Positions 10,971 through 38,310 of a DNA stretch of 64,000 nt are shown in pieces (the first letter of the stretch is position 1; each line of letters begins with the position of its first letter). The notes below the pieces were generated by a model, which did not search any database, had not been told where the DNA came from, and was given only the letters and a program-made list of their open reading frames with translations. The DNA comes from Pagrus major (taxonomy: Eukaryota; Chordata; Actinopteri; Spariformes; Sparidae), in NCBI RefSeq assembly GCF_040436345.1, contig NC_133215.1, positions 19,785,306-19,849,305 on the forward strand. The letters are read 5' to 3'. A program made the translations under genes and the position numbers.

Positions 10971-12044
10971 TTAATAAGAAGAATTATTTCCGTTGTTGCC
11001 TCCAGTGGTTTCACAGTCCACCAATCTTCATCAAGATGGAGACAGGAACTCTATGACTTAAGAAACATTGAAAAATAGGAACTAAAACTAGAAAAAATGC
11101 ATTATATGAACAAATAAGATTTTTTGAGGAAGCAGCAGGGCCATTTATAGCTTTTTGGGGGCCCTATGCAAGATGGAGACCCTATTTTGTGGAGGGGGTT
11201 CCAAACTCTAGTTATTTATTTACTTATACATCTTTCACGCTGGCCAAGAAACCCCACATACCCGCTAACATCTGTTTTTTGTGTACAATGTAAATGTATA
11301 TGATAAGGATTTACTCCCCTGTCGATGAACCCTACAGTAGTCAGGGGTATTTATCGCCTCTGGCTCGGCTCAGCTGTGATGTGAATGTCACACCCGGGTA
11401 AACATGCGTCAACGTGTGTTGAAGTTAAGGCCGCTGACTTGTTAATATCTTTCCATCTGTCTCTGTCAAGCAGCGCTTGAACATCGTTCAGTCAGCGCTG
11501 ACTTCGAAAGAGAGATTTAAGTTAAAGAAAAAAAAAACCACTACGTGTCTAATTCAGAATATTATTGATTAAGACTTTTTATAACAAGTTTAAAGTCTTC
11601 TGGATGTAGTCTGATGAGGTGTATGATCTGCTGCTTTCGGCACTGGCAATATAAAAGGAGATCATTGCTGATTATTAGCGGGTTTAGTATCTGTGTTTAA
11701 AAAGCTAATTTTGGTGTTGTAGCTTGTTCTTATTCTCTATTACTACTAATTTTCTGGACAGGATTCAGGATTTGGGACAACTGCTCATAATTCATGATTG
11801 TACCAAATGTTTCTGTCTGGTCAGCCAAGTGCTAAGCCAGCACAATAAGGAGTTAGGTCAGTTCTGCAGTCCATTCACATCACAGTTTTATTTCTTCATG
11901 GGGTCCCTTTGCCACCGCATGGTCTGCATATAACAAGAAACAGTTTTAGGAAGCAGACAATATAGAAGGTGCTGTATCGTGAACAACTGAAATCAATATT
12001 GTGAAGTGATGACAAAAAACTGAACAAATATAATAACTAACAGT

Positions 12045-12141
12045 GTTATGTTCTGTCCGAGTGTTTGGACAGATGCTTTGGCAACATTGTTGTTAAACTT
12101 TCATGCCAATAAAGCCCCTTTGAATTTGAAATTTGAATTTG

Positions 12142-12142
<1 letters not shown>
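12045..12142 (+). mobile_element. Retroposon 3' tail (LINE/SINE type)
   Basis: The segment 'catgccaataaagccccttt' followed by repeated 'gaatttgaaatttgaattt' is the typical 3' end of a fish non-LTR retroposon, with AATAAA and a short tandem tail. Only the tail is recognisable. The tail runs directly into the (TG)n microsatellite. Confidence 0.5.
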
Positions 12143-12196
<54 letters not shown>

Positions 12197-12230
12197 CGTG
12201 CGTGTGTATGTGCGCGCGTGTGTGTGTGTC
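12142..12230. repeat. (TG)n microsatellite
   Basis: About 88 bp of TG dinucleotides, with a few TGCG and TGTA interruptions at the right. It ends a few bases from the stop codon of the proximal serhl copy. In that gene's mRNA it becomes a (CA)n run at the very start of the 3' UTR. Confidence 0.95.
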
Positions 12231-12232
12231 CA

Positions 12233-15200
12233 CTATGCTGGCAGCTGCTGTGAGATCACTTTGGTCTGCAGGAAGTCAGAAACAAGAGGAGCGACGACTT
12301 CAGGACTGTTCAGGTGGACGTGATGTTCGCCTGGTACAGTCACCACTGTGTGCTGTGGCAGAGAGAGAAGTGATGATGAACATTTGAGTTTTCTTGTTTT
12401 GTGCTGCTCTGTCATTCAATGATTTTTCATAAAGAAATGATTAAGAAAGATCTTTTCTCTCACGTTGAGTCTTTTGGTTAATTTCTAGTAATACATGAAT
12501 TTCCTCCACCAAGAAGCCCATGTTTTCTCCCAAGTCCGTTTGTTGGTTTGTCAGCAGGAATACACAAAAACTACTGAAAGGATTTCCACAAAACTTGTAT
12601 GGGGAATGGGTCTCGGCCCAGAAAAGACCCCATTAACTTTTGGTGCAGGAATTTTTTTTATCACTTTCTTTAACAATGCGAGATGGTATTTTTTTCTCTT
12701 GATCTTGATGTAAACAAATCAACTGTATTCGGGTGGCTGGTATCTAATCCTCAATCTGGTGACTTAAATTGTGATTAAATTATGGGTGGTCTCAAATTTA
12801 GAGTGATACAGGGCTATCAAGGTTCACACCGAATGAGGCTTGATTGAATTAAAGGGTAACTCCACCAATTTATACAATAAAGTGTGTTTATATGTTTACG
12901 GGAGTACTCCTGCATATATGAAAAAGTAGTATAAGGCCTTGTGTGGCTCCAGAGGAAATGTAATCCATTAACTTGTCTTAACTGATGTCACTCAGTTGCA
13001 TTGTACGTAATGAAGGCCACAGGTTTTGAAAAGGAAAACGAATGTGTGAAAAAAAAAGGCGACATCTCTGTTTCTGTTTTCATGGTGGTGTACCACAGAT
13101 ACACTGCTCTTGTTCATTGTATAGTTGTTTTGTTGTTGTTTTACATTTGCCCATACTGTATTACTCACACACTCACACGACATGAAACTGAAGGACCACA
13201 GTCCTTTTTGTGACTTGTCACAGCAGGAAAAGCAAAGGTGAAACAAATTTAATGTTAACAAAGACTCAGTTCCACAAAGTGAGTCATGACACTCAGAAAG
13301 CATGGAGGAAAAACAGGACCCTGAAACCAGGACATCTGTGCTTTTACTGCTTTGAAAAGCTAAAATGTCTGCTGTGAAAAAGGTCTTTTGTGTACTGGAC
13401 AAAACATCGGTGTATTTTTCCCCTGTGCTAAATTTTGATATTGATTTCTTTTTTAAAAAAGAAAAGGAACAATCTGGTTGTGTCTTTGAACTCTTTTGTG
13501 ACCCTGTTTCTTGGTAACGCTCTCCAGTCTCCTCTGTGCTGTGGACAATAAGCGGGGAACAATATGTTTTCGTTTACTTTCCTTTTAACCGACACCGACA
13601 TGGCAAGGCAGCGTTCGCCCAACCTCCCTCTGTCGGGGTTCACAATACTACTTCTCATTGTCATACTTACCTTCTAAAACAAGAGCAGGCAGGAACGAAA
13701 CATTTAATCTAAGGCGAGGGAACATGAGGTGCACTTAATTGTTACACATGTAAATATACAGTATAAATAATAGTTAAAGTGTTAATGATAATAATAATGA
13801 TGATCAAGTTAAGGATAATGAAATAATTGTCCAAAACAATGCTGTGGAATCATTCCTACTGAAATATGATTTACCAAAGTATACTGTTCACCTTAAAAAC
13901 CCCTTTAGACTCACATATATTTCTTTAAATGTTCACTTATATGCATGCTTGCATACCCACATGGAAAGAAATTATAACAGAAGAACGGTAAGGCCTAATT
14001 GCAATGTATGTGGCTTTCATCTGAAAGGTAAAATCGTATAGTTTCTGAAAACTGTGCTTGTGTGTCATGGGTCAAAAAGAAACGTAGTTACTTCAATTAT
14101 TCATCTAAAATAAGTCATATCTGAATAACAGGAAATAGGATATACTTTATGTCAGAGCTTTGCTAATCACTACACATACCTTCTACATCTCGTCAACTAC
14201 ACTTTACACAAAATGTCGGACCTCTAGGCCTAATGAGCAACACAATAAACTTAAGGAATAACTTTTACTTTAATAACTAAGTAATAAATATTTTTGTTTA
14301 TATATCTATATATAATATTTAGTACATTGTAAATGTCTATATGCTCATCCCTCACCCTTCTGGTATTCTATGATGGTTAAATCCTCACAATAAACTATTC
14401 CAGCAGCTATTAAGATTTTTTATATCCAAGATTTAAACTCACATTTCTGTCACGATAGCCTTGGAGAAGTCTCGAAGTAACTTTCTGTTGGTTTGATTCT
14501 GGAAGTGTTGCACCAAAACCTTTGTCAGCCCTGAAAAAAAAGCAAAGTTTGAAAGAAGTTTAGTGTGACGTACATTGGTGACTTTATCAAGCCACATTAA
14601 ATTGAATTAGGATGCACAAATCATACGAAACTGGCATGTTCATAATTTCAGTGTATTGATCAACATCTTACAGAACAACCAGAAGAGAGGCTTGAATCCT
14701 CGCCTGCATGTCCAGACTCTGCTCCAAACTGATGCGCACTATGTTTTTCTGAAAACAGCAGATAAAACAAATGTGTGCTGTACGAGCTGAATGCCGAACC
14801 TCTGGTAGAAAAATATATCCATTACAAAGAGGCGGTGGATGTGGGAAAAAGGGTTTGGGAGGTTAAAAAGACTTACAAAATTAACTCGCATGTCTCTGGA
14901 GAACACAAATCCTGCAGAAGAGAAACACTTTCAGCTGGCAGCAGATGGGAGAAAGCAAAGTGAGATTACTTCTCTCTGAGAGGAAAACAAGAGATAAAGA
15001 CGCACCTGCTTCAACTTGAACGAGACCTCGCTCTAAAAGGATGCGCACAGACTGTTCAGACAGAATCGGGTTTGCAGCTAACAGCCTGAAAGAAATACAA
15101 CAGTTGTGGTTTATTGTATCATGTTTAAAGGGGCACTATGTAGTTTTGGGGAATAAATTGTATTTAGAAGAGAAAGATCTTTGTAGACTGATTTTTTGAG

Positions 15201-17719
15201 CCTAAACAAACTAAAAAAACAAACTGATCTTAAAGGACATCAAAATTTCACACTGTTTTACTTTGTTTATATTTGGCGGACCCTGCCACCTTTGTAGCTT
15301 CAAACAGTGTTCTGGGGACCTTATTTTCCTCTGAGAACAGCTTGTTTATTCAGTTATGGAAAAAAAATCTGAGTTTGAATTTCTTCTCCAAAACTATGTA
15401 GTGCCCCTTTAAAGAGTACTGCACTGAATCATGACTGCACTAATAGCACTCAGCACGCTAGGCTAATGATGGACAGGAAAAAAAAGATCAAATCGATGGA
15501 ACAAAAGCAGAGATATCATCTTCTTCTTTGCCAACTGTTGTCTGTCTGACTGTTAAAAGTATGGCTGGGTTTCAGATGCGTTATGCTAGTAGCGGCTAAT
15601 GTAGCCTGAAGCTGCTAGCCGTAAGCAGAGATGAGGAGTGGACTACAGAGATCAGATGAGCTCACTTCTTTCTAACTCAACAGTCTCAGATTGTTTTAAA
15701 TATCAAACTTGTGTCTTCAGCTCCAACCAACACTGCCTCCAGTGACAAGTTGAGTATGAATATATCAGATTGTGCCTCTTTAGACCATTCAAGGAAGTCA
15801 AAATTAAACTAACAGATTGATTACAAACATAACGTTTCGCAGGTTTTCTGATATTTTATGTTTAAATGCACAGATGAAGCTACTTAATTACATATGTTCC
15901 AAACTGAACAGTAATCTTAACAAAAATAAACACCTACACGTTTATTTTGGACATTTTTCCCCGGATGCAAAAAAAGAGCAAAATCTCAAAACTGAAAACA
16001 AAAATGACAGCTTATTTAACTTGAATTGGTCACAAACTGGAGCGCTATAATACCTCTCCGCAGCCTTCTCATAAGTGTAAACTCTTTTCTTCTCTTCTGT
16101 CTTTTTTTCATACTGTAGCATCTCATCCATCCCCTGTCTCATCAGCTTGGGTATTTCTGTCTGCAGGAGGAATAGAGAAAGAAACAATGAGGTGAGAAAG
16201 TCAACTCAAACTGACAGCCGTGGAGGGTGAGCATAATTGAGGAATACTTAAATAATATTTTTATGGATATTGTCACTATTAAACCATCTTTTCTTTAAAG
16301 GCTTGTCATACTCAGTATAGTGATCATAAAAACTGTGACGGTACCAGATCTGTAGGACTAAATCCAAAAGCGTCCAGCAGTACGACAGCATCCACCATCT
16401 CAGGATACAGTGCGCTAAACTGTGGAAAACACAATATGGACAAAATATGATACCATGCAATAAAACACAGCAACATATTCTCTGTATAATGAGTGAAAAC
16501 AGTGAAAACTTGCGTGTGATGAATGTTACTTACCATTGCAGCGATGTTCCCACCTGTCAGGTGGAGAAAAAACAATCATGCTCAACGCTTTGTCAAAATC
16601 TTTACTCACTGACTTATTTCAAACAGATTCTGGGCTGTAACAATAATTAAATTTTCATTATCCATTAATCAGTTAATATTTTTTGATAGATCAATTAGTG
16701 TAGGAAAGTGTCTGGTGTCTCCAGATTATCTATCTTAAGCTGAATCTGCATAATGTGGGACTCACCCATACTGTGGCCTATGATGGAGAATTTTGTCCAC
16801 TGGAGACCTGTGGGAGTTTTCATAGAAAACATCTGATTAAATCTAGTTTCATTCCCTGCTGTACTTTATAACAAATCTGGATTAACTTCCACAGAGACAT
16901 GATAAGATCTGACATCTTGCTGAAAAGGTCCTGCATCCTCTTGAACTCACGTACCGTCAACAATTCTGCGAACATCCGCCACGTACGCTGGAAAAGCGTA
17001 GAAAACTCCAGGAGGACGATGAGAGGACAAACCGTGACCTGGCATGTCCACCGCCACATACTTGCAGTCTGAGAGGAAGCAGAAAAAGAGATTAAATATT
17101 CCACAGTGTAGCGAACCTCAACAGGGTTCAGTCTTGTGTCTCACCCACTGTTATATCATTTATTTTTCAGTAATGCTTGCGGCAGTGTTGGCTGGTCCAC
17201 TGCTGTGTTCCAGACTGAAATATCTCAACAAATACTGGATGGATTATAACGTTGTACAGACATTAAAGCAACATTATGTTTTACTTTTTTACCTTAAAAT
17301 AGCAGACTCAAAATCATTTTTATTTCACCTTTATTTTACCTGGAGGTCCCATTAAGATTAAGATCTCTTTTACCATGACATATATCGCCAAAGTAGCAGC
17401 CATACACTATAATAAAATAAAACTTATAAAACTTGATATACACATAACCAATCCAAAATGCCACACAAGTTGAAATGTTGTTCATTACCTTTGGGTAGAA
17501 GGGGAATGAGTGTGTTGAATGTACCACAGTTGTCAGCCCAGCCGTGCAGGCAAAGCACAGGACGACCGTGATCAGGACCCCAGACTTTACCTCTGATCTC
17601 TCCCCATGGCACCGGGACAGAGAGCTCTGAAACTGGACACACAACACAAGCTCAGAGAGCAGCTCTCAAACAAGGATCTGACAGATATTCACTGCTCACA
17701 TACTACCTGTAGAGGACAT
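12233..17719 (-). CDS. serhl: Serine hydrolase-like protein, copy B (304 aa, 12 coding exons)
   Basis: Alpha/beta-hydrolase of the SERHL/SERHL2 family. Coding exons, 5' to 3': 17719-17707, 17632-17489, 17068-16955, 16807-16766, 16553-16534, 16419-16345, 16160-16054, 15085-15006, 14911-14877, 14748-14672, 14530-14443, 12352-12233. All have GT/AG sites and matching phases. Motifs: LCLHGWADN oxyanion region, AVDMPGHGLSSH, nucleophile elbow GHSMG (Ser103) and GEHHVHL (His275). The acid-position loop reads ADKGFG, with Gly242 where copies A and C have Asp or Glu. The short first exon encodes only MSST. The end is QQLPA, without a peroxisomal signal. Introns resemble copy A, showing recent duplication. 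The last intron (2.1 kb) carries transposon pieces. The expected role is hydrolysis of an unknown, probably lipid or ester, substrate; activity may be reduced. Confidence 0.88.
12853..13080 (+). mobile_element. Half copy of a TTAA MITE (AGGGTAACTCCAC family) inside serhl copy B intron 11
   Basis: TTAA at 12849-12852 precedes AGGGTAACTCCACCAA. The following 220 bp align by eye with the left half of the full element at 60647-61102 (shared 'aaagtagtataa', 'ctccagaggaa', 'ggttttgaaaaggaa'). The right half and the second TTAA are missing. Confidence 0.65.
15129..15408. mobile_element. TTAA-flanked palindromic MITE (AGGGGCACTATG family), copy 2
   Basis: TTAA at 15125-15128 and 15409-15412 encloses a 280 bp element with ends AGGGGCACTATGTAGTTTTG and its near-perfect reverse complement. 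The interior shares 'tagcttcaaacagtgttctg' with the copy at 2259-2549. It lies in intron 7 of serhl copy B. Confidence 0.85.
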
Positions 17720-18759
17720 TTTAGTGTCTGATGATCTTCAGCTGATGTCTCACCAGCAAAAACAAAAAACAAAGTTGTCCTGAAATATCCACATAACAAC
17801 AGAAACAAGCAGACTACCTTTGACCTTTGGACCCTCAGAGCAACAGCCTCATTCTTCCTCTTCTTCTTCTGTGGAGTTTTATGGCGGTTGGCATCCATGT
17901 GTGTTGCATTACTGCCCCCTACAAGATATAGTTTCACCGTGAAAATGATTTACATTGTCCAAAGTGATACCATTCCCAACATTGTCCATCCATCCTATTC
18001 CTATGGGGTTTGTGTGTTGACTCTCTTTCAGAAATCCACTTACTGAACCACAGACTTTTATGTTTTAATATGCTGCTGACCAGTGAATTAAATGTTACTA
18101 CACAACTATATGATGGTAGGAGTTCATCTGTTTTCTATAGCACCCATAACAACACAGTATTTAACACAGTGTTTCGTTACGGAGGTGGTACAATACTCCT
18201 TCAAGCAAAACAGATCATGAGACGGGATGTACCAGGATCTGGGAGGCAGACCACTTCCGCTCCAGGAGGACACCATGAAATTAGACATTTTTCCTTCCTC
18301 CATGCACTCTGGAAGTTGATGAAGTTTTGATGGAAATTCCTACTCTGCTTCCACCTTGAAATGAGCACTGAAAACGTATGAATTCACGAAAAACTGTGAA
18401 TCTGCAGTGCTGCACTTGGTGGGTGTAACAAAAATGGGACCAAGAAAATAAATCACACTTTTTTTCAGCCAAACCTTCCTCTCTCTCTGTAACTGCTGTT
18501 GGCCTGTTGGCTTGCATTTAAGGCTAAATCTCTTATTTATGTGGAGAAATGTGTTTGTCAGCCCCAGTTCAGATTTGTCAATAAAATTCTCATTAATGTT
18601 GCCTCCAGCTCGTTTTGATAGGGATTATATCATCTTAAGGAAGCATATTGGCACTTCACGGGAGCTTTAGTACTTTTATTCATGGAAACTCTCACACAGT
18701 TTGTTCTTATAAACAACAGTACAACGTGACTTTGTCAACAGTGTTTGACTGTTTGCAGC

Positions 18760-21700
18760 TTATAACTTGTGCTCTCGGGTCGGCGGTGAGAGCACTTTGG
18801 TTCGCAGGAAGTTGGACACGAACGGAGCGACGACTTCCGGCTTGCTCAGATGAACGTAATGATCGCCTGGTGCTGTCACCACCGTGTGCTGAAACAAAGA
18901 CAAACAGAGAGGGAAGGGATGAGCACTACACTATTCACAACAAACCAATGCACACATTTTGTATTTTCATTCTGTCCCAGTTGCAAACTCACGTTTCTGT
19001 CCCGCAAACACTGGAGCAGTGTGGTGGTAAATTTACTCTGAGCTGGTTCAGAAAGTATTCTATCAAAGCTGCCGTTTGCTCTGGAAAAAAGAGGTTTTGA
19101 ACACATTTAGTTATATTGAAGGATGAAGAGTTAAGTACAGTAAGTTATTGATAGATATAATACGGACAAAGATGTTCAACACACTTACAGAACAACCAGA
19201 AGAGAGGCTTGAATCCTCGCCTGCATGTCCAGACTCTGCTCCAAACTGATGCGCACTATGTTTTTCTGAAAACATAAAAACACACGTGTGCTGAATGCTG
19301 AACCTCTGGTGGTGGTGGAACATATAGAAGTTTACAAAGAGGTGGTGGTGGATGTGGGAAAAAGGTTTGGGAAGTTAAAAAGACTTACAAAATTAACTCG
19401 CAGGTCTCTGGAGAACACAAATCCTGCAGAAGAGAAACACTTTCAGCTGGCAGCAGATGAGAGAAAGCAACGTGAGATTACTTCTCTCTGAGAGGAGGAA
19501 AAAGAGATAAAGACGCACCTCCTTCAACTTGAACGAGACCTCGCTCTAAAAGGATGCGCACAGACTGTTCAGACAGAGTCGGGTTTGCAGCTAACAGCCT
19601 GAAAGAAATACAACATGTTAGCAAGCGGCTCACTAAAAGGACAAAATGATATTATATTATATTATATAAATGGCCAACAATTTAAGAGCTATTATACCTC
19701 TCTGCTGCCTTCTCATAAGTGTAAACTCTTTTCTTCTTTTCTGTCTTTTTTTCATACTGAAGCATCTCATCCATCCCCTGCCTCACCACTTTGGATAATT
19801 CTGTCTACAAGAAAAGAGACAGAAACGATGAGGTAATGAAAGGAGCGTAAGCACGGAAGAGATCTGTTTTATGAAACATGATACAGTGTATGACTTAAAA
19901 GAAAGAATGAAAATGAAGATAATTGAAGCACAACTCAATAATACTGCAGAAATCATGTTGAACACTTGAATGAAGATTATTTGATGAATATAATCAGAAG
20001 TTATTTCCTTGAAAGTTGAATAAAAAAACCTGCTGGTTGATTATAATGAGTTCAGTATCTAAATATATGATACATGTACAAACATCTAACAAGGGCTGTA
20101 GCCTGACTGAGGTCATTTTTCAGCAGTTATAGCAACCAGAAGGGAGTTTTACAGTCTGAAATCAGGAAATACAATTAGTGAGAATTAAATGACCTTATTT
20201 TAGGGTTTTAAAATGAATAAATGAATAAATTGTACGACTTACAGCCAACATCCAACACAACAAATAAATAAACAAACAACTGATTCAGAAATTCATTCCT
20301 TGAAACATTCCTTCGCCCTTGTTTTGGGAAATAAAATTTACACAAAAAGACATGAAACAGTTACACAAACTGCAGCGAATATGAAAAATAAAAACTTTTC
20401 ACCAACACAAACTGTTAAAGCTCTTTAGTAGTTTCGTGTCTCAGAGTGGCTCTTACCGTGTCTGTAGGCAGGAACCCGAAAGAGTCCAGAAGTACGAGCG
20501 CCTCCACCATCTCAGGATACATAGAAGCGAACTGTGGGAAACATAATTTGGACCATACGGTATCAGAACGCATGAAAACACAGCAAAATATTGTTCATGA
20601 TGTAAAAAGGAGGAAACAGATAGGAGACACGGACACTTACCACCGCAGCAATGTCACCACCTGTAAATGAAAAAAAAATTACTTTACAAAACAGATGGCA
20701 GGAGATAAATTCTGATGTGACGCTGACTCACCCATACTGTGGCCTATGATGGAGAGTTTCTTCAGCTGCAGAGCTGTGGGAGTTAATTTCACAGATCATC
20801 AAACAGACAGGTTCAGCATCTCGTCACAGAACAAAGACAAAGTTGGCAAGATTTTTCAGTTTCCAAAAGTCCTGCTGTGGTGCAATCATGGGCATAAACA
20901 GGAACAATGAAGAGGAGCGCTTCTGAAACTTCTTGAACTCACCCACCATCGACAACTCTGCAGACATCCGCCACGTACTCGGGTAAAGAGTAGAAAGTTC
21001 CAGGAGGACGATGTGATGACAGACCGTGACCTGCCAGGTCCACCGCCACATACCTGCACTCTGAGAGGAGGGACAGAGTACAGTACTCACACGACACACT
21101 CAGTGGAAGTGACTAACCACCTAGCCACTATGCGAGCCGATATTAGATATTATTGCATATCGCAATATTTGCTGTCATATGCAGTATTTTTCACAATATC
21201 GAATATCAACCAGCAGTGTGATTCTTCCCCTGAGAGGAACTAATCCGACTGCATTTTAATTTTTAATTTATCAGTGTTACATCTCACCTGGTTGCTCTGT
21301 GACAGACTAGCTGAACCTAAAACTGAAGGTTATTCTGTTATATTTGCAATGAATTATTTGCACAAAAGCTGTGTTGTATGTGTTGCTGCAAAGGGAGACG
21401 TAAAGAGGGGAACAACATATCGACCTCTTGGTCGATTATTTATGTTACGATGATAATATTGTCTATCGTGATATTTTAGCAGGACAATATCGTGATATGA
21501 AATTTTGAATATTGCCCGAGCTTAATCTCTACAAGTGTAATGTTGCACAAAATGCATCTGCTGCTTTACACCTCGTCTTTCATTAATCAATCTTAATCAT
21601 TACCAAATGAAAATGCTCTTTCCAGGAAACGTACAAGAAAATCATCCCCTACGAGCCAGTAATGGGTTACCTTTGGGTAGAAGGGGAATGAGGGTGCTGA

Positions 21701-22506
21701 ATGAACCACAGTTGTCAGCCCAGCCATGCAGGCAAAGCACAGGATAACCGTGATCAGGACCCCAGACTTTACCTCTGATCTCTCCCCAGGGGACCGGTAC
21801 AGAGAGCTCTGAAACTGGACACACAACACAGTCTGGTTTAGTTATACTCACGTCTCCACTCTTCTCTCGTCTGCCTTCTCTCAACTTGACCTGGTGACAT
21901 TATCTTTCCAGTAACATGACCAGAAAGATAAACTCACACTTTCAATAAAAAAAATCGCCTCTGCGCCCAAAGTGACTTCAATCACTGGACACACAAAACA
22001 GCATCAAACACAAGAATATCAGAGAATTGATTAAATATTACTACTGCAGTAACTCAGACAGCCATTAGCAACAAAGTGGTGTTTTAACATGAGAAACTAT
22101 TTGACTGACAGACGAAAATAATCCCACAGGTTTCAAATGAATCCATGACACCTGTCTTCTCTACTGTCTACTGCCTGCTTGTTTAGTTGTAGCCTGGTTG
22201 TCACCAGTTTAAACCACCTGTAAAGGCTGACAACACTTATTCACACAGATCCCTGACAGACACAAACACGTGTGAAACTGAAGTCTGCAGCTCACACACA
22301 CGATGACCTGACAGGAGAGGAAACAGAAACTAACAACAGCAACAACTGTCATTAATCATTACAGGCCTGTGAGGGTCAGGCTGACACTGAGCTTTAAAGC
22401 CACATATGGACTATTTGACAAGACATCAGTGTTACAGCCTGCTGTAGATGTCTGACAAGACGTTTAAACCTCCAAATACTCTGACTTTGTTACCTTGTTT
22501 AGCCAT
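18760..22506 (-). CDS. serhl: Serine hydrolase-like protein, copy A (307 aa, 12 coding exons)
   Basis: Middle gene of the tandem array. Coding exons 5' to 3': 22506-22494, 21814-21671, 21060-20947, 20773-20732, 20660-20641, 20531-20457, 19804-19698, 19598-19519, 19423-19389, 19265-19189, 19080-18993, 18888-18760. Phases are identical to the other copies and the frame is unbroken. The 13-nt first exon encodes MAKQ. Motifs: LCLHGWADN, AVDLAGHGLSSH, GHSMG (Ser103), ANGSFD with Asp242 at the predicted acid position, and GDHYVHL with His275. The C-terminus is REHKL; HKL is an accepted variant of the SKL-type peroxisomal signal. The gene is compact (3.7 kb). The catalytic residues are complete, so it is probably an active hydrolase, plausibly peroxisomal like mammalian SERHL. 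The substrate is unknown. Confidence 0.9.
21125..21530. mobile_element. 'CGATATT' rich MITE remnant in serhl copy A intron 2
   Basis: Repeated 'atatcgcaatatt', 'tatcgtgatatt' and 'caatatcgtgatatgaaatt' with opposing halves are typical of a widespread fish hAT-like MITE. The ends are too eroded to fix the boundaries or a target duplication. Confidence 0.5.
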
Positions 22507-22818
22507 TCTAGTTGATGTTATTGTGTGAAACCCTCCGTGAAGTTTGCTCACATCTCTAAACGTAACAAGTCTGCAGTCCTGTTCACTTCCGTCCTCTCCT
22601 GTGGCTGCAGCAGCGTGGACTGATCAGCGTCTGTTGTCCCTCAGTAAGGTCTGTCAGGCAGCACCTCTTTCTCATGGAGCTTTAGCTTGTGCTCTAGTTT
22701 CAGCATTTGCTTAAATACTGTGCTAAAAATACATTTACAAATCTAGAAAAGAAAAAAAAAAGTCTCTTTCTGTATCTTCCTCGCTCACACGCACACACGT
22801 CAGTAAATGTCATGGCAA

Positions 22819-23025
22819 CAGGATGATGACCCTGCAGAGGTCATGTTGAACTGCTGCAAACTGCGGAAAAATAACTCTCTTAGAGATTAGAAGTGCAGGA
22901 AAACTGGAAAGAGTATCTTGTTGGAAAACAAAACAGTTGGATCACTCAACTACTGTGGAAAAAGGGAGGGCTTAAAAAATGGCCCTCATGCTGATAAGGG
23001 CGGCCCATGAGTTGGACAATAACCA
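22819..23025. repeat. Dispersed direct repeat, copy 1 (pairs with 24201-24391)
   Basis: About 200 bp from 'aggatgatgaccctgcagag' to 'gagttggacaataac' recur, nearly identical, at 24201-24391 in the same orientation. Copy 2 lacks a short stretch around 'tgtggaaaaagggag'. The segment holds no reading frame I can support. The whole 22.6-27.6 kb spacer holds only repeats and unassigned DNA. Confidence 0.75.
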
Positions 23026-24200
23026 TGTAGGTAAGGCAACTTTTAAATTAATAATCATTTTACTAATCCATTCATTCATCCTCTTAAAAGCTTTATTAGC
23101 ATAGAAATCAGGTGGACAGTTCATTCTTTCTCATGCATTTCATTTTTTCCGAAATAAGGTCCCATAACGCAAACTGGAAGAGGTGTGACTTCGGCTCTCT
23201 ACAGGTCCAAATATATATTCAAAAATAATAATAATTCTGAAGATCACAATAACAATAACGGTTTTAACCTTGTGTCAAAGAAGTCTATGTGTTTCAGAGA
23301 TATCTACTGAAGTTAGCATGCTAACCAGCAAGGGCCCGCCAAAGCTCCTGCTAGCGGTGTAAACAAGAGTAACCCTCCCCCAGTGCCCCGGGCTCCCAGT
23401 CCAGAGCGCTAGCTGCACGGCTAACTGAGCTAATTAGTTAACGGCAGCTGCAGTTAGCAGTTTCTCTCATGATATGCTGTGCCCCTATTTGTTTGGAGTA
23501 TGAATTTGCCAGGTGGTCAATTCTTACACCTGTAAGTACAAATTCAGGGTACATGAAGGCCTATTTTACCTGAGTAACTAAAGTATTTCATACAACTTAA
23601 TACTTCTTCTCCATTATCAGAGACAATTATAGTACTTTTACCCCACTACATTTGTCTGACAGCTATAATGTTTCAGACAATTACAACTCACACGAGGGTT
23701 TGATGTTGTTAGTTTTTGCTGTGTAACTGTTAAGAGGATTTTGTGTGTACTCTAACTTTACCTACAGGTATCAGTTACCTGTTTATGTGTTATGAATGAG
23801 GTCAGAATAATCCAGGATCATGTTTCAGCTTCTTATAAAGACGTATCAAAGAAATTCTCAGTGGAGATGAGCTCAGAAGTAGGGCAAGACTTGTTCTTCT
23901 GTAGTTCACCCTTCAAATATTCAACTTACTGAAGATCCTTAAGCCGTGCATTAGATCAGTGGTTATCAATCATGCCCCCCTTCAGAAGCTAAATTAAAAA
24001 TGTTCATACCCCCCAAACCATGTAAACTGATTTAGTCAATCACTGACAATATTGCAAAAGGGACTCAAGATGTATTTTATTAAAAATACATGAAATGATT
24101 CAAGTCAGCATGACAACATCAGCAAACTCTTGTTTGTTTTCCTTCCTTTGCCCTCCCTTTCTCTCAGCTGTGCTTTCCATTTCAAATTCAGATGCAGACA

Positions 24201-24391
24201 CAGGATGATGACCCTGCAGAGGTCATGTTGACCTGCTGCAAACTGGAAAAATAACTCTCTTAGAGATTAGAAGTGCTGGAAAACTGGAAAGTGTATCTTG
24301 TTGGAAAACAAAACAGTTGGATCACTCAACTATTGGGCTTAAAAAATGGCCCTCATGCTGATGGGGGCGGCCCATGAGTTGGACAATAACC
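24201..24391. repeat. Dispersed direct repeat, copy 2
   Basis: Same orientation as the copy 1.38 kb to the left, with only a few substitutions and one short deletion. It is either a segmental duplication or two insertions of the same element. Confidence 0.75.
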
Positions 24392-27300
24392 GCATTCAAT
24401 TCAATTTCTTATTGCAAAAGGAGTATTTGATGGATTGAATATCTTAAATATCCCGGGGCAGATGTGGAGTGTAGGTGATTATGCATCCTTGTTGACAAAA
24501 TACTGCTGCTATCCTGCCTCTCCACCTCCTGGTAGCAGTTAGAGTGCAGGGGAGGAGGCGTTGCTCATTTGAAAATGTTAGTCTAGTCTGCCTGACTCAT
24601 TGATCCTTTATCTGACTGAGGTTTGTCCAAGTAAGAATCTATGGCCCCCGCCATGACTCTGATATATCATTAGCCTAACTCTGCTGTGTATCGATAAATC
24701 CATGGTGCTCTCTGTGGTGCTGAGGTAGCAGATGGATTTCTAATTCTGCCTTTTTTCTCTGTTTCTTCTTGAATCTAGAATATCCTGTAGTGTAATATAA
24801 CCATATAACCATAAATAAGTAGTTAGTGGTTAATGACAACTGGTAACAAGTACTGAGATATTAAAGAATCTAATCAAAATGTGAATGAATCATAAATGAA
24901 TGGGTAAAACATGTATTGCTCTGCACTAGTTGATTGAACACGCACCTATTGATTGAATTGATGATTAAACTACAGAATTGTGTCACCTTAGAGTGAAATA
25001 TAACCATAAATGTAAGAGTGAAATCATGTGAGTTAATATACCACACTTTTTTATTATTGTTGTTAAAAGAGATGCAGTCAGTAGGTCAATAGAGCCCATT
25101 ATGGAGGAGAGAAAAAGCGTCTCACAGTCCCTGCACAGGGGAGGCAAGGTCACGTAGATAAGACATGCAGCTGCACAAAAACATCAAGGGGCATCCCGAT
25201 AGAGAGCTTGGGTCAACACATGGAGAGCTTGTGTCAAACGAGGTAGAGTTTGCGCGAGCAAGGAAGATCGAAGGAAATGCCGAATGTCGACAAATGCAGA
25301 CATAGTTTTGGCACGTGTTTTAGCCTCGTGCAGGAAAATACCCAAGTCTGCAAAATTTGATACATAAACAAAAGAACGAACCAGGATTGGACAAACCATG
25401 GTGCCCGGCCCCCGTTTTAGTGAATAAAAGGAGTATGTTTTGTATTGAGAAATTGGGTCGTATCGGATGAACTTTTGTCTGTATGATCTCATGTTTTAAT
25501 GGTCGACAATTAAACATTACTGCACTCAGCTTTGGAGGACTCCTGGAGATTATTTCCTTTTTATCGGTAACTTTTTTGAAACTCTGAAAAACCTTTTTGA
25601 GCAAACAAAGAATTAAGAAGTAGATACACGACAATCCTCTCACCTTTTTTAATCCCAAATATTTTATGTTATGAGAGATATTTAAAATTTGAAATCAAGG
25701 TTTCAGGTGCTATAACTACATCATAGATGAGGAGCAGGTAAGTGCTCAGAGGAAGAGGTAGAAGAGTGAGGAAAGCCATGAGGAGCCAGCTCCTTCCACC
25801 CAAAGGCCTCAGCTGCTGTTACTGGCAGGGTCCTTGTGAGCCCTCATGGTGGGCTGATAATAGACTCTGTAGGACTGAAGGCCCTTTTTGCTGTAGAATT
25901 GGAAAGCTGTAAAACCTTTGTGTCTGGCAGGGCTGGTGAAGCCGCAGGTAACCTTCCCACCAGTCTGCTGGGGTTGGCGATGACTCAGGTAGCATCTTGC
26001 TGGCTTTGTTATTTGTTTTCTTTATATTGATTTTACTTTTCAAGGTCCACTTTTTAAGAATGTTGATATTTGAGTCTGACTCCAAGCTTGGCAAACACCA
26101 ACTCTTTTGGGATGACGACGACCCGACCTACAATCCCAAAGAGACCCTCACCGTGTGCAGCTGAGAGACAGCTGAGACCACCAGTGATGGCAGTAAAATG
26201 GTCAAAGATTAAATTATCTCTGGAGATTATGGAGTCATAGTTTTAGAGAATTCCAATAAATGTTCCTCTAAAGCAAGATTCATCCTCTGCATTCACTGCG
26301 GCACTCAAACACAAGCACCCTTTCTTCCCACAGCTCATAAGCTTTTGAGATTAAACATGAGGACACACGATTCAGAGAAAGTGTGCAACTGCTAAAATAT
26401 TAACAACGGGCAGCAGACATCGAAGACATCTGACGCACCACAGTGCATTTCAAACAGTCCTCAAAGACAGCAGGTACAAGGTGATATAACTACTGCCTGT
26501 GAATACACCTGCAGGAGAGGAGGAAGGCAGCGAGCCAAGAGAAGAGTTCAGCAGCCTGAAGAACACAAGACAACTGAGAGGAGCTCACTGTCATGATGTA
26601 GACTTCAGCCTGCCAGACATTCAAAAAGGTCTCGGCTGCCAGATGTCCTAAGAAGCTAAACATGTTTGTCGCAATCTGGTTTGACTCAGAATAAAATATT
26701 TAACCTTATTTTTTTGCAAAGAGTGTGGCTCGAATACCATTACATTTTGGTACTATTATATAATATATACATATAAAATAAATGAGTCTACAGTTGTCAC
26801 ATGTGAAGGGGAACGCCACAGATTGTACACAGAGGTCGATTTACAGTTGTCATCCGACTTGGATTGTAGGGAAACTGTCGGTGGTTCAGTGTCATTGTGC
26901 ATAATGTAGGCACCCACTTTTGAAAAGGAAGAAAGGAATAGAAAAAAAGATAACATTTGTAATCTGCAGCATCGATTTTGATCAGTTTTTTAAAAACTGA
27001 GTCACAATAATGTTAAAGGAGTGCAATGTTAAATCAGCAGAGTACTCTTTCAAGCTAATGAATCTTACTGAGACATGCCTTCATCAGCCACACGCTTTCA
27101 AGTGTTACATTTTACTGTTGCTTTCAAGTTGTCACTAATAATTTAAGAGATATGTTACAGGATGTGTCATGTATTAAATACATATAATACTGCACGAGAG
27201 CCAGGTGTTGAACTCTCGCAAAGTTAATATTTGATCAATAAGAGCTTGATACAAAGCCACTGAATGGAGTGAACCTGGCTATGAAAACATTCACTCACTG

Positions 27301-27653
27301 GACCAAAAAGCAAAAGATACAAACTGAGCCAAAACCACAATTTAGCTGCCTTTTGCTGATCCATCACTCCCACTTCACTTTTTTACACACCATCTGGAAT
27401 TAGAGACAAGCAGCTTGATGTGAAACATGGCTTACATTGCTCACATAGCTCTGTCACTCAAAACAATACACATTAAAATCTATTAAAGTATGTAAATTCA
27501 TGCAGCTGTCCAACAAATGTAACATGATGCGACTAGTTGATGCTATTACAGCAGGTTGACTGAGGTTAAAGCATCAAGGTGAGTTTCAACAGTACGGTAT
27601 AAAAGAGCTTGTGCAATATGAGTTAAGGCAAAACTGTTGCTTGTCTGTGTTCA

Positions 27654-30600
27654 TTATAACTTTGAGGCCCGTTCGTCTGTTAGGCTCGCCGACTGTGAGA
27701 GCACTTTGGTCTGCAGGAAGTCAGATACAGGTTGAGCAACGACATCAGGTTTGTTCAGATGGATGTGATGATCGCCTGGCACAGTCAACACCTCGTGCTG
27801 CAAGACAGACACAGAAACAGTTACACAAGTGTAAAGTGCATTATTTTAACCTGCAATAACTGATTATTTTCGGCCACATGGAGGCAGCAAAAACAACATG
27901 AACACAACATTTACATGTTATCATCACCTTTTGACTTGTTGGTGGTTGCTTATTTAGACATCCAGCAGTTACAGAGCAGACGTGTTTTTGGTCCAATTTT
28001 TAGACTCAAATTCTTTGTCCCCGTTTTTGGTCTATACAAAATCCTGATGGAGGTGTTTGTCTCTTTAGCTATGTTTACCAGCTAGTTTCTAACTCTGTCT
28101 CTCTCGTCCAATGTTTGACATTTTTGCTTGAAAAAAATGACTGAATCAATTTATCGACTAATCGTTGTAGGTCTACTAAAAAGCTCTCTAAACCTGAGGG
28201 AAGGTGCAGAATAAGGTGATGATTCACTACAAATGACGCATTTTCACATTGTCATGCTGTCATTCGATACATTGTTATAATAAAAATATTGATTTATTGA
28301 TATATTGATATTGAAAACATCTTCTGCTTGTTGAGGGTTGCTGTCGCAGCAGGCTAAGCAGGGTATTCCAGACATCCCTCTCAAGTAATGCTTTCCAGCT
28401 CCTCCTGGAGGAACCCGAGGCATTCCCAGGTCAGATGAGGTAAGTAATCCCGCCAGTGAGGTCTGGGTCAGCCCCAGTATCTCCTCGCAGTTCAACGTGC
28501 CTAGGAAACCTCCAACGGGAGGCATCGTAATCAGATGCCTGGACAACCTCAGCTGGCTCCTTTCGCTGCAAAGGAGCTGCGGTTCTTCTCTGATCTCCCT
28601 CCGGATGTCCGAGCTCCTCATACTACCTCTAAGGCTGAGCCCAGCCAGGAGATTGAAAAGCTTTGCCTTCCGCCTCACCTCCCTTTTCATCATGATGGTT
28701 CAGTGCAAAGCCAGCATCAAACCGCCAGTCCATCTCACGCTCCACTTTCCCGTCACTCATGATCAAAACCTTGGGATACTTAAACTCCTTTGCCTGGGGC
28801 ATCAATGCACCCCCAACCCAGAGTAGGCAATCCACCGTTTCCCAGCGGAGAACCCCGGCCTCAGACTTAGAGTTGCTGACACTCCTATCAGCTGCAAACC
28901 GCCCCTGTGCCTGCTGGAGATCGCCAACTGATGAATCCAACAGAACCACGTCATCTGCAAAAAGCAGAGAAACAATTCTGAGGTTCCCATACCGGACACT
29001 CTCCTCACCATGGCTGCACCTTGAGATCCTTTTCATGAACACCAAGGTCAGGATCCAAGACAAGGGACAGCCTCGTCAGAGTCCAACACTCTCTGGAAAC
29101 ATGTCCAAAATTGTGCCGAATATGCGGACACTGCTTTCACTTGGATTATAGGACCGGATGGCTCGTAGCAATGGCCCCTGTACCCCATACTCCTGCAGTA
29201 CTCCTCAAAGGACTCTTAGGCCTCAGTCCACAAAACACATGAAGACTGGATGGGAAAACTCCCACGAACCCCCCAAGAAGCCAGCAAGGGTGAAGAGCTG
29301 GTTCACTGTTCCAAGACCAGGATGGAATCCGCATTGTCCTGAACCCGAGGTTCGACAATCGGTCGCAGCTTTCTTTCCAGCACCCTGAAATAAACCTTTG
29401 AGGAAGGCTGAGCAGTGTGATACCCTGATATTTGGAGCACACCTCTGGTCTGTCCCCGACTTTGTGACGACAACACCAGTCCAACAATGTCCAGAGCCTT
29501 CAGCATCTCAGGGTGAGTCTCATCCACACCTGCCGCTTGGCTGAGAAGCTTCTTGACTATCTCAGCGATCTCTGCCAGGGGTATGGGCAAGTCTTCAAAC
29601 ACTTCTACCTCCTCAGAGGCATATTGATTATAACCGCTTTAAAAATCATTAGTATTCTGACACGGATTTTTTCCATCACCAACTGACTTGGAAAGAGACC
29701 ATCATGGGACATGTTTACTTGATGCACATTCTCTGTTTTCCTTCTCATCAGCAGCACATGACCAAGTTCCTGTATGTAGGTCACTGTTGCGGTTCACAGC
29801 TACAAAAATAATTCTGCTGCCTCTGAGACATTGAGCTCTTATAACTCTGCTACTTTTGCATATGTGTGGCTGTCTGTCTGTCTACTAGGCACAATTACAC
29901 ACACACAGAGGCTTAACAGCTAAAAATAAATATGAAGATGAAAGCATACCTGCTTTACACAAGCAGACTGAACACACACTCACATTTCTGTCCCTATAGC
30001 CCTGGAGAAGTGCTGATGTAAATCTTTTTTGATCTGGTTCAGAAAACATCTTCTCAAAGCCGTCTTCTGCTCTGGAAAGACAAAGAGAAAGATTGTATGT
30101 ATAGTCAGTTAGGTACAATTTACAAGGATTGTACTGAGTGTAATACATGTACTAAAGAATTGTGAGGTGAAGGAATATCTTACAGAACAACTAGAACAGA
30201 GGCTTTTATCCTCGACTGCATCTCCAGACTCTGCTCCAAACTGATGCGCACTATGTTTTTCTGGAAACATAAGAGAAAAACATACTGTACATGGTCTGCA
30301 CACTGCACATTTGAGAGAAATAAAAAGGCAAAGTGATGAGTTGGTGCAGTTCAGCAGAAACCTACCAGATTAATACGAAAGTCTCTGGAGAACACCACTC
30401 CTGCAAGAGGAAAATATATTTGCAGCATAAGAGTAAAGACGAAGTGAGATTACTCAGAGAGTGAGCTCAATTTTTTCTCTGAGGAGCACTCACAGCAAGA
30501 ATAAAAACAAAGAGGATGAAAAAAGCCGTACCTCCTTCAACTTGAACTAGACCTCGTTCTAAAAGGATGCGCACAGACTGTTCAGACAGAGTTGGGTTTG

Positions 30601-33600
30601 CAGCCAACAGCCTGAAAGACATAAAAGGTTTTTTTTGTAGACAAAAGTTGTACAAACAAGGTTATTATATGATTGGATGTTGAGTAGTTTTATAAAACAC
30701 CATAAATAAGAGGGTGTAATACCTCTCCACTGCATTTTCATAAGTGTAAACTCTTGTCTTCTTTTCCTCTGGCTTTTTTTCATACTGAAGCATCTCCTCA
30801 AAGCCCTGTCTCACCACTTTAGGCATTTCTTTCTGCAAGGAAACAGACAAAAAAGATGAGGGAAGCCATTCAACACAACTGGCAAGAGTGGGTTGTACAG
30901 CGAGTAATGCAATAATATAATATAAACGCTTGGCAGGGACCCAAAGGACAAAAAAACATGTTGGACTCAATTACACTGGTGACTAAAGCATTTCTCAAAT
31001 GTGATGCCTTTCATTTTAAAATGTCAACCGACCCACAAATGTATTTTTTCATTACCTCACAATTTAGAGTTCCTCAGACATCCTCATAAAGTCTAATAGC
31101 TTTTTAATACCTCATAAAACGCAATTTAAAGCTTTTTTATCTTAAAATATCAGCTTCTCAATCATTGTGATGGTACAGTGTCGTAATAGGGTGAATGATG
31201 TCTCTGTCTCAGCCACTCTGTCCCCCCATGACTTGTTTCTGCACTATGTAACTTCAGTCAGAGGGTAGGATCACAGTGTTACATACGTGTTTACTTCAAC
31301 ATACAAGTTTTCAACACACAACATTGTTATGACGTAATGAGTTTTGTTTGTAGTCAGCACCTACATTACGACTGACAAACATGATCATACAAAGTACGAT
31401 GGAAAGCCAGTACAGATGATACAACTAAGGAGTAAGGTACAATAATTCCTAATGATGGAATTATTAACATAATTGTCACTTGAATATGTGGTATAAAATG
31501 CAATTATGGATTATGTAGGATGTTTCTTTTATAGGCTGCACACGTTCTTTTGGTAACTATCACATCACCGGTGGGAGGACCCTTGGCTCAGATATTTCCT
31601 TTTGAAAGTCTCCTCACACCTTGCTTTAAGTTTTCCAGAACGACTGGTAAGTCAATGTTTTTTATTTAATAAATAGCATAAAACGTATCTGGACATCGGT
31701 ACGGATCTTTTGTACGTGGCACAGTTAACAGCCCACTCTAGTCAAAACTGCTGAAGTACCAGATCTGTAGGTAGGAATCCGTAGGAGTCCAGCAGTACAA
31801 CAGCATCCACCATCTCAGGATACAGCGCGCTGAACTGTGGGAAACACAATATGGACTAAATACCACACAGCATAGCTAAAATAGTAACAAGATGAAACAG
31901 CCTGTCACAACAGTGTCACTTACCAGTCCAGCAATGTTTCCACCTGAAATAAAATAAAAGATAGTTGACACATAAATGTAAGACACATAGTGCATAACAA
32001 GCATTTAAAATGGCTGCACTCACCCATACTGTGGCCTATGATGGAGAATTTATTCCACTGCAGAGCTGTGGGAGTTAATTTCACAGATCATCAACCAGCT
32101 TCAGTATCTCATCACACACATGGACACTGTTTTTTTTAGTGAAAGACAACATCACTACTGTGGTTTAACTGCAGTACATTCACTAGAGCTGTGTGACAGA
32201 GTTAAAAATACCACAACATGAATCAGTGAATTTTTCTATATGAATACTACAATGCTATTTATACTACAACTTGTACGAAAGGCTTTCAGACTAAAGGTAT
32301 AAAAGCACTGCCCCATCATGGGAGTGCAGTGCCACTCCATTCAGTTCCAGTGTACTGTAAAGCAAATATGTGCCAAATCACATTACATCTTTGATTTAAC
32401 AAAAAAGGTTCATTTAAATTTTGATATTAACAGGAGCTTTCAGCTTTAGTCGTGCCTGTTGCCATGGAGATTGCTCATCTGTATCATCTGCTGAATAAAC
32501 TGTGAGATGTGGTCAAAAGAGCAAGTAAGTTGAAATTTGCTCAGAATCACTTCGTGCAGCTTGCTGAACTCACACACCGTCAACGACTCTGCGAACATCC
32601 ATCACATATGAGGGAAAACTGTAGAAAACTCCAGGAGGACGATGCGATGACAGACCGTGACCTGCCAGGTCCACCGCCACATATCTGCACTCTGAGAGGA
32701 ATGAGAGAAAGAAGGACAGAGTCCCACCAAGTGAATGTCACAGCATTTCTTAAAAAAAATCTGTTTAAAGGACAGTGGTAGTAATATCATAATCAGATAA
32801 CATGCGTCCTTCATCCTGCTGGATGGGAGGCAGCTGTTCTAACAGCTGAGCATCAGCACCTGCACAGACACACTTTCCTGAGGCGAAGACTAATTAGCCG
32901 AACACTTATGCGAGTCAGGGTTCTCACAATTTCTTAAAATAAAACTCAAGGACTTTTCAAGGACTTTCCAGGCTCAAATCCATTCAATTCAATTCTTCAA
33001 GGAATAGTTGATGACACAGATCAAGGTTAATAATAGTGACAACACTGAGAACTAGCAGGCTTTACAGAAGCTCACAGACATAAATGAAAGAGAGAGGCTT
33101 GTATGTGTGAACCTCTGCTGCTGTGTTACATTGATTACATTGAAAAGTCTTGGAGACACATGCGTTTTTAAGCATCGTAGGCCTACGTACCATATTGAAA
33201 TTTCTCCAACAGGTGTTATATCATGTTCATATCACTTGCAAAATCCTATAGCTGTACTCCAAATGCTTTCTAAGTAATGATTTTCTTTAAGTTTGGCCCT
33301 TGGATTCAATTCCATCAGCAGGGCAAGATTATTTGACTGGGGGAGAGACTCTGACACAACATTGGCACGTATCTTATATTGTATCAATGATTGGATCCGA
33401 GTTGTGATTAAAAGCTCGGGTGAACCCAAGAAGATTTTCCAATTTAAAAATGAGCTGCGTCATTCTTGAGTTTATGAATGGCTGCTTTAGGGTAAAATAA
33501 AGTGTGAAGAGCTAAAACTTGGGTGGTGAGAGCAGTGTTTAGTTTTATGTGAGATCCTCAGTTTACTACAAACAGTTACCTTTGGGTAGAAGGGGGATGA

Positions 33601-35122
33601 GGTTGTTGAATGTACCACAGTTGTCAGCCCAGCCGTGCACACACAGCACTGGACGACCGTGATCAGGTCCCCAGACTTTCCCTCTGATCTCTCCCCAGGG
33701 GACCGGTACAGAGAGCTCTGAAACTGGACACACAACACACTGGTTTAGTTATACTCATCTCTTTACTCTTCTGTCGTCTACCTTCTCTCATCTTGACCTG
33801 GTGACAATATCTTTCCAGTAACATTACCAGAAAGATAAACTCACACTTTCAATAGAAAGGGTCTCTGCGCCTAAAGTAACTTCAATCCCTTTTGATGGTT
33901 GATTTTTCATTGAAGTCATTAATCAGGGAAAACTTCCAGCTTCTTTAACAAGATGATTTGCTGCTTTTCTTCATATTATAAGCTTACAAATTAAATGTTT
34001 TTGTGTCAGACAAAATAAGCAATTTGACGAGTTCACCTACAATTCTTCTCATTATCGATTAATCCTATTATTATGATTATTTATCCTATTAATTGATTAA
34101 TTATTTGGTCCCGAAAAGACAGTGAAACGCAACAGATCTTTTCCCACTTGAGAAGCTAGAATCATCTGGATTTTTGGCATTTCTGCTTTTAAAGTGACTT
34201 AAGCCATTAATCGAATATTGAGACTGAAGACTGTCAATTCATGTTCTGCAGAACAACTCAACACAAACAACACCATAGCAGATTTCTCCTTTTCAGTCAA
34301 TTTGTAGCTCAGGAGGTAGAGCGGGTCGTCTAGTAAGCGAAGAACGCTGGTTCCAATCCCTGGCTCCCCCAGCTGCATGTCGAGGTATCGTTGAGCAAGA
34401 TACTTTTGCTCCTGAGCAGTCGGCACCTTGCATGGCAGCCTCAGCCATCAGTGTGTGTATGGGTGAATGTGACAAGTGTTGTAAAGCACTTTGAGCGGTC
34501 AGTAGACGGGAAACACGCTATATAAATGCAGGTCCATTTACCAATCTGACTGTCCTGCAAGCAAACCCAGATTAAAGCTATATAAATGTATAAATGGTAT
34601 ACTAAATCTTATATATTGTAAGCAAGATGTTTTCCAAAAGTTAAATCGCTGTCCAAAATTTAATTGTATCTATCTCTGTGTTCACTTGTGTTCTGTTTTA
34701 TTGTTATCTTCAATAAAAAGGTACTGGACCACAGTCAGGTTGATTATAAGTTGGATATTCATATTCATGCAGGCCAAACAGGAGACACCTTCATACTTGA
34801 ATTTAGTGCTTTTTATGTTTAATCAATACCCATTTTTGGTACTGATTGAGTCACTGGGTCACATTAAATGTTGAAAAGGACATTTTAACGCTCTTATAAC
34901 GCGGTTTGCAACACATAATGTTACATAAGCAACATTACGAGCAACATCTCCGATTCAGCAGACATGTAAACACTTTATTGATTTATTTGACTTTTCTCTT
35001 CCCTTCATAGGAGTTGTCCTGGTTGTAAAAACACACTGTACCGAACAAACACTGCCACAGTTACCTGCTTGTTTCACTGCACTGGAGTGCAGGTGTCTGA
35101 CGCCTTTCAAAGCTCGCATCAT
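27654..35122 (-). CDS. serhl: Serine hydrolase-like protein, copy C (328 aa, 12 coding exons)
   Basis: Distal and most diverged gene of the array. Coding exons 5' to 3': 35122-35065, 33723-33580, 32691-32578, 32065-32024, 31943-31924, 31834-31760, 30832-30723, 30611-30532, 30400-30366, 30260-30184, 30071-29984, 27797-27654. All phases match copies A and B. The first exon is longer and encodes MMRALKGVRHLHSSAVKQA, basic with no acidic residue, like a mitochondrial presequence; a second in-frame ATG follows at once. Motifs: LCVHGWADN, AVDLAGHGLSSH, GHSMG (Ser118), AEDGFE (Glu258 at the acid position), GDHHIHL (His291). The protein ends RASKL, a canonical PTS1 peroxisomal signal. A LINE fragment sits in the last intron. 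It is probably an active hydrolase, with dual targeting possible. Confidence 0.92.
28300..29620 (-). mobile_element. Broken LINE (non-LTR retrotransposon) 3' part, in serhl copy C intron 11
   Basis: Successive minus-strand frames resemble a fish LINE reverse transcriptase. A YQGITLLSLPQ-like block lies near 29.4 kb, followed by the catalytic block SLLFADDVVLLDSS near 28.97 kb, the AKEFKYPKVLIMSDGKVEREMD block near 28.77 kb, and the downstream SLRGSMRSSDIRREIREEPQ and SQLRLSRHLITMPP blocks near 28.5-28.65 kb. The frame shifts several times and stops intervene. The 5' half is absent, so it is a dead, 5'-truncated copy. The clade was not determined. Confidence 0.85.
34296..34543 (+). mobile_element. 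tRNA-derived SINE
   Basis: A pol III A box (TAGCTCAGGAGGTAGAGC) is followed by a B box (GGTTCCAATCC), then the fish SINE body ('gttgagcaagatac', 'gcatggcagcctcagccat', 'gggtgaatgtgacaag', 'gtaaagcactttgagcggtc') and the end 'cgctatataaatgcaggtcc'. It lies in intron 1 of serhl copy C. The tRNA-like head is not a functional tRNA gene. Confidence 0.85.

Positions 35123-37366: not shown

Positions 37367-38310
<944 letters not shown>

Follow-up and report, generated by a model that had tools for sequence, protein, structure and literature searches.

The window analysed here is a stretch of 64,000 nucleotides from the genome of Pagrus major (C1:19785306-19849305 of a 786-Mb assembly in 25 contigs), the minus strand of which carries three serhl-like genes in tandem, called here the left, middle and right copies (Table 1). 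The gene models were built from mutual comparison of the minus-strand frames and then as explicit splice models. Each gene has 12 exons, all 33 introns have GT-AG borders, and the spliced frames are open with no internal stops. An earlier note on this DNA had described three C-termini ending in SKL (RASKL), HKL (REHKL) and no signal (QQLPA), and the intact 12-exon models bear this out for the right, middle and left copies respectively. These reading frames and ends, the junction with a repeat at the end of the left copy and the average constraint on all copies are direct observations. We propose, with a probability of about 0.55, that the array arose by a tandem triplication in which the peroxisome signal diverged, and that the left copy lost its type 1 peroxisomal targeting signal (PTS1) at the repeat junction.

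The C-terminal SKL of the right copy meets the canonical PTS1 pattern [SAC][KRH][LM]. As a chance baseline we took the 5816 in-window stop codons with three open codons before them, and since the canonical tripeptide precedes only 26 of these (0.45%), it is unlikely that the SKL is a chance match. The HKL of the middle copy fails this pattern and conforms only to the broad consensus given in an inventory of zebrafish peroxisomal proteins (Kamoshita et al. 2022, PMC8919083). Since the broad pattern is found before 402 of the same stops (6.9%), HKL alone is weak evidence. The earlier note regarded HKL as a weaker but accepted import signal, a view that we do not uphold: the HKL of zebrafish G6pd is termed a weak PTS1 in the relevant passage of the inventory (PMC8919083), and an Arabidopsis HKL decapeptide reporter is described as remaining cytosolic in onion cells (PMC3487989). 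It is therefore not secure that the middle and right proteins are both peroxisomal. The LPA of the left copy fits neither the canonical nor the broad tripeptide, and at the level of the sequence the absence of a PTS1 from this copy is firm.

Loss of the signal is the likeliest history of the left copy, since zebrafish Serhl has a predicted PTS1 that apparently outperforms its human equivalent (Kamoshita et al. 2022, PMC8919083), the C-terminal end AAGTTATAA is common to the middle and right copies, the gene model of the left copy is undamaged and under constraint, and no canonical splice rescue was found. The shared AAGTTATAA suggests that these two copies have a common end. The proposal of the earlier note that one duplicate lost import and moved to the cytosol is thus retained as regards the missing signal and its probable loss, while the cytosolic location is something we infer. 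An alternative last exon restoring a PTS1 in the left copy, which the earlier note had foreseen as a possible objection, was looked for by splice scans that ran along the minus strand as far as position 9000 and sought the canonical tripeptide. None of the 344 alternative acceptors after left exon 11 gave one (2/335 in the opposite-strand control), and neither did any of the 941 donor-acceptor pairs formed from the five GT sites in left exon 12 downstream of the histidine motif (10/1085 in the control, all 10 being GSKL). Rescue by alternative splicing was rejected for the scanned range on these counts. Read-through of the left stop codon yields a tail beginning WTHTHARTYTR, in which no PTS1 occurs.

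The point at which the left copy departs from its neighbours is well defined. Its exon 12 shows 86% identity to that of the right copy up to position 105 of 120 nt and 80% to that of the middle copy up to position 106, and no further, so that homology ends after CTCACAG at about 12248, approximately 18 nt before a (TG)n microsatellite. The 22 nt that follow CTCACAG do not align above shuffles with the right or the middle copy (fractions 0.89 and 0.41 respectively). A small frameshift alone was set aside as the source of the new stop on this ground, and since these nucleotides align to neither copy a small indel and a replacement are indistinguishable. Beyond the microsatellite lies the 3' end of a dispersed repeat. 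In a search of the fish's own genome with positions 11500-12232 as the query, 40 of 1091 first-look candidates were scored, and 17 of the 19 other repeat loci aligned reach further 5' than the window copy, as judged by best hit. The tail and the truncation point to a retroposon. The (TG)n was considered as a part of the repeat family and rejected, since at none of the 19 other loci do the 80 nt shown beyond the tail open with (TG)n. In the left copy a microsatellite and a 5'-truncated retroposon-like piece thus occupy the place expected for the final codons.

The left copy looks functional, having an open frame and a branch ratio of nonsynonymous to synonymous substitution rates (dN/dS) of 0.38. 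In the three-point estimate over 304 codons the middle and right branches have ratios of 0.42 and 0.33; the bootstrap ranges are 0.22-0.69, 0.26-0.79 and 0.20-0.55 for the left, middle and right copies, and ratios of 1 or above were reached in 0, 1 and 0 of 100 bootstraps respectively. The left and middle copies have likely undergone gene conversion in exons 8-10, to judge from a dS of 0.000 over 64 codons (dN 0.021) against 0.22-1.44 in the remaining blocks of this pair; their introns 8 and 9 are 95% and 80% alike. The adjoining exon 11 has diverged most in sequence, with 60-72% nucleotide identity and 50-57% amino acid identity over 30 codons. The statement of the earlier note that the last exons are the most diverged in length is correct among exons 2-12, where exon 12 has the largest variation (120, 129 and 144 nt in the left, middle and right copies) and exon 7 is the sole other exon to differ (107, 107 and 110 nt). 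It does not extend to exon 1, which differs more (13, 13 and 58 nt), the 13-nt predictions for the left and middle copies being weak.

Table 1. Features of the serhl-like array and its left border (positions in the window)
Feature	Position	Strand	Description
Left serhl-like gene (copy B of the earlier note)	12233..17719	-	12 exons, 304 aa, ends KVISQQLPA then stop, no PTS1
Middle serhl-like gene (copy A)	18760..22506	-	12 exons, 307 aa, ends KVLSPPTREHKL then stop (REHKL)
Right serhl-like gene (copy C)	27654..35122	-	12 exons, 328 aa, ends KVLSQSASLTDERASKL then stop (DERASKL); probable parent
Last exon (12), left copy	12233..12352	-	Stop codon 12233-12235; terminal LPA codons 12236-12244
HKL codons, middle copy	18763..18771	-	Weak PTS1-like end
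SKL codons, right copy	27657..27665	-	Canonical PTS1
(TG)43.5 microsatellite	12143..12229	.	3 nt from left-copy stop codon; Tandem Repeats Finder
Dispersed retroposon-like repeat	12044..12141	+	98-bp 3' end, TTTGAA tail, 5'-truncated; own-genome search and alignment
Exons 8-10, left copy	14672..15085	-	Tract common to middle copy; likely gene conversion
Exons 8-10, middle copy	19189..19598	-	Partner tract; likely gene conversion
Exon 11, left / middle / right copies	14443-14530 / 18993-19080 / 29984-30071	-	Adjoins exons 8-10, near-identical left vs middle
First coding exon, right copy	35065..35122	-	58 nt, MMRALKGVRHLHSSAVKQA, presequence-like by net charge and hydrophobic moment

The right copy matches the Abhydrolase_1 profile (PF00561) at 83.5 bits against a cut-off of 25.8 (E 2.3e-23), and its nearest solved relative by sequence is 7al5, a 'Probable hydrolase' (E 9.2e-41, residues 20-303). 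Only this copy was scanned against Pfam; the left and middle copies align with it along their whole length. All three copies keep GHSMG (GxSxG) and PG[DE]H[HY][VI]H late in the sequence, which we take to be the nucleophile elbow and the catalytic histidine motif. The name serhl was given to the three genes in the earlier note; it is a fitting one, and they are putative orthologues of vertebrate SERHL/SERHL2. Loss of the catalytic acid was considered, as ADKGFG, ANGSFD and AEDGFE differ after what is presumably the seventh strand, yet an earlier Asp (VLLD) is present in all three copies and inactivity is not claimed. In a whole-genome protein search with the array proteins (32 candidates, 32 scored) all 20 matches fell within the array, and at the sensitivity of this search no further serhl genes were found elsewhere, nor any other genomic copy able to stand in for the left one. 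Of 15 Pfam matches, eight (L001-L008) were compared with the three proteins. Six gave weak tblastn matches, the best being L001 (E 2.6e-6), and L006 and L008 gave none at E up to 1; all eight were read as other alpha/beta hydrolases and rejected as serhl genes.

The N-termini of the copies also differ, a feature not mentioned in the earlier note. By simple charge and moment a presequence-like N-terminus is found in the right, SKL-bearing copy only: its first 20 residues have a net charge of +4, no acidic residues and a hydrophobic moment that peaks at 0.65, values matched by 6 of 896 random in-window ATG 20-mers. The right copy may be dual-targeted to mitochondria and peroxisomes, and SERHL2 is listed among the genes intersected with MitoCarta3.0 in one paper (PMC10334674). 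First-exon homology with the right copy was not above shuffles for the middle copy (293/500 as good) or the left copy (179/300), and the 5' exon region of the left copy against that of the middle copy was borderline (13/300). That a shared presequence had eroded in the left and middle copies was therefore rejected, and its loss is not claimed. Intron 1 of the middle copy ends in 172 nt that are 88% identical to the right copy. The observed/expected CpG ratio of the start region is 0.86 in the right, 0.58 in the middle and 0.14 in the left copy, for which 350-bp windows served as the reference (median 0.37, 95th percentile 0.87). The right copy is the probable parent of the array.

Several other features were observed in and around the genes. 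Next to the array, on the plus strand at 37369-38310, lies a globin gene, presumably for myoglobin, two exons of which when joined give a match to Pfam Globin (E 9.8e-23). Two direct copies of about 200 bp (22818-23024 and 24200-24391), 87-97% alike in ungapped pieces and about 1.38 kb apart, lie in the flank 5' of the middle copy. Intron 11 of the right copy includes a stretch (28330-29640) that gave the impression, from reading only, of a non-LTR (long terminal repeat) retrotransposon fragment. An AATAAA lies 341 nt downstream of the left copy and 80 nt downstream of the middle copy, and neither AATAAA nor ATTAAA occurs within 1.5 kb downstream of the right-copy stop (26154-27653).

The history that we favour would be as follows. 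One serhl-like alpha/beta-hydrolase gene would have been triplicated in tandem, with the right copy, as the probable parent, retaining the canonical SKL and having a presequence-like N-terminus. The PTS1 would be ancestral and would then have been lost from the left copy when the end of its last exon was replaced at the repeat, so that the exon now runs towards the (TG)n and the dispersed-repeat tail and stops at QQLPA. The left protein would no longer be imported by Pex5 and would be a cytosolic, active hydrolase, and the middle protein would be found largely in the cytosol, with import partial at best. A number of points weigh against this history. The ancestral state rests on zebrafish, for which the PTS1 is a published prediction, and on two local copies, the ends of which give a local alignment that is not clearly above shuffles (fraction 0.10). 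The fly Kraken, the SERHL counterpart, is marked as not peroxisomal in the table of a review (PMC7477296). Since gene conversion is apparent between them, the constraint on the left copy and that on the middle copy are not fully independent, and, as stated, the left copy has a weakly predicted first exon. Furthermore, no target-site duplication of the repeat was seen by eye, and the retroposon is connected with the loss by adjacency only.

It may be asked whether the left copy ever had a PTS1. If the duplication breakpoint fell within its last exon and the new stop came from flanking DNA, the microsatellite and the repeat would be bystanders, and the sharp break in homology is what would then be expected, as is the lack of a significant match between the downstream flank of the left copy and the flanks of the other two. 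However, the 3' flanks of the middle and right copies are themselves barely alike past the stop (fraction 0.08 against shuffles), so that divergence alone would leave the flanks unlike, and we consider this origin doubtful though tenable. The missing signal would have no meaning if the left copy were an early pseudogene or not expressed. Its 13-nt first exon, its CpG-poor start and the strong divergence of exons 11-12 are in keeping with such a fate, but the twelve exons have canonical borders and an open frame, GHSMG and PGEHHVH are kept, and the branch dN/dS of 0.38 was never raised to 1 in the bootstraps. We consider either fate quite improbable.

The remaining alternatives concern the location of the proteins. 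The left protein could still reach peroxisomes by riding on a paralogue that has a PTS1 or through some other signal; the three proteins are similar enough to co-assemble in principle, and the zebrafish inventory raises PTS1-less Acoxl isoforms that ride with PTS1 partners (PMC8919083). A second signal is not apparent in the left protein, and no evidence for oligomers was found, none having been sought; we hold this route to be very improbable. Alternatively, all three proteins could be chiefly mitochondrial or cytosolic, the SKL and HKL ends having little effect in Pagrus major. The presequence-like N-terminus of the right copy, the inclusion of SERHL2 among MitoCarta3.0 genes (PMC10334674) and the annotation of Kraken (PMC7477296) would agree with this, but the canonical SKL and the prediction published for zebrafish Serhl (PMC8919083) would not; moreover, the presequence was judged by charge and moment and is lacking from the left and middle copies. 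We think this decidedly unlikely. An extended form of the proposal, in which one array gives three addresses, with the right protein in mitochondria and peroxisomes, the middle one partly peroxisomal and the left one cytosolic after its last codons were overrun by a retroposon and a microsatellite, with gene conversion maintaining the likeness of the left and middle copies in part of the enzyme core, must be regarded as speculative and, taken as a whole, unlikely.

If loss of the PTS1 from the left copy is the correct reading, the array would offer a clean example, confined to one locus, of a duplicate that changed compartment when its terminal signal was lost, the parent and an intermediate with a weak signal still lying beside it. 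A compartment-specific role of SERHL would then be testable by comparison of paralogues within one animal. Rat Serhl2 has been linked to the oxidation of lipids and to lipid droplets (PMC11732562).

The loss of a PTS1 from one paralogue is a known and ordinary kind of event, with precedents in zebrafish Crat and teleost Prdx5. The zebrafish carnitine O-acetyltransferases are alike in that Crata has a PTS1 (AKL) and Cratb has none; they differ in that neither a tandem array nor a repeat at the gene end is described where they are discussed (PMC8919083). The C-terminal PTS1 of Prdx5 has been lost in zebrafish and most teleosts, which the authors read as relocation, but this is the loss from an orthologue across species, unlike that from one of several tandem copies proposed here (PMC8919083). 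Zebrafish Serhl resembles the genes described here in its name and in having a predicted PTS1, whereas it is discussed as a single protein, with no paralogues or loss reported in that account (PMC8919083). Among the literature matches listed, no published experimental localisation of a fish Serhl paralogue was found. In plants, relocalisation of duplicates also involves a change of compartment through targeting signals, described in genome-wide studies (PMC4202327, PMC7086175) as opposed to the single fish locus considered here.

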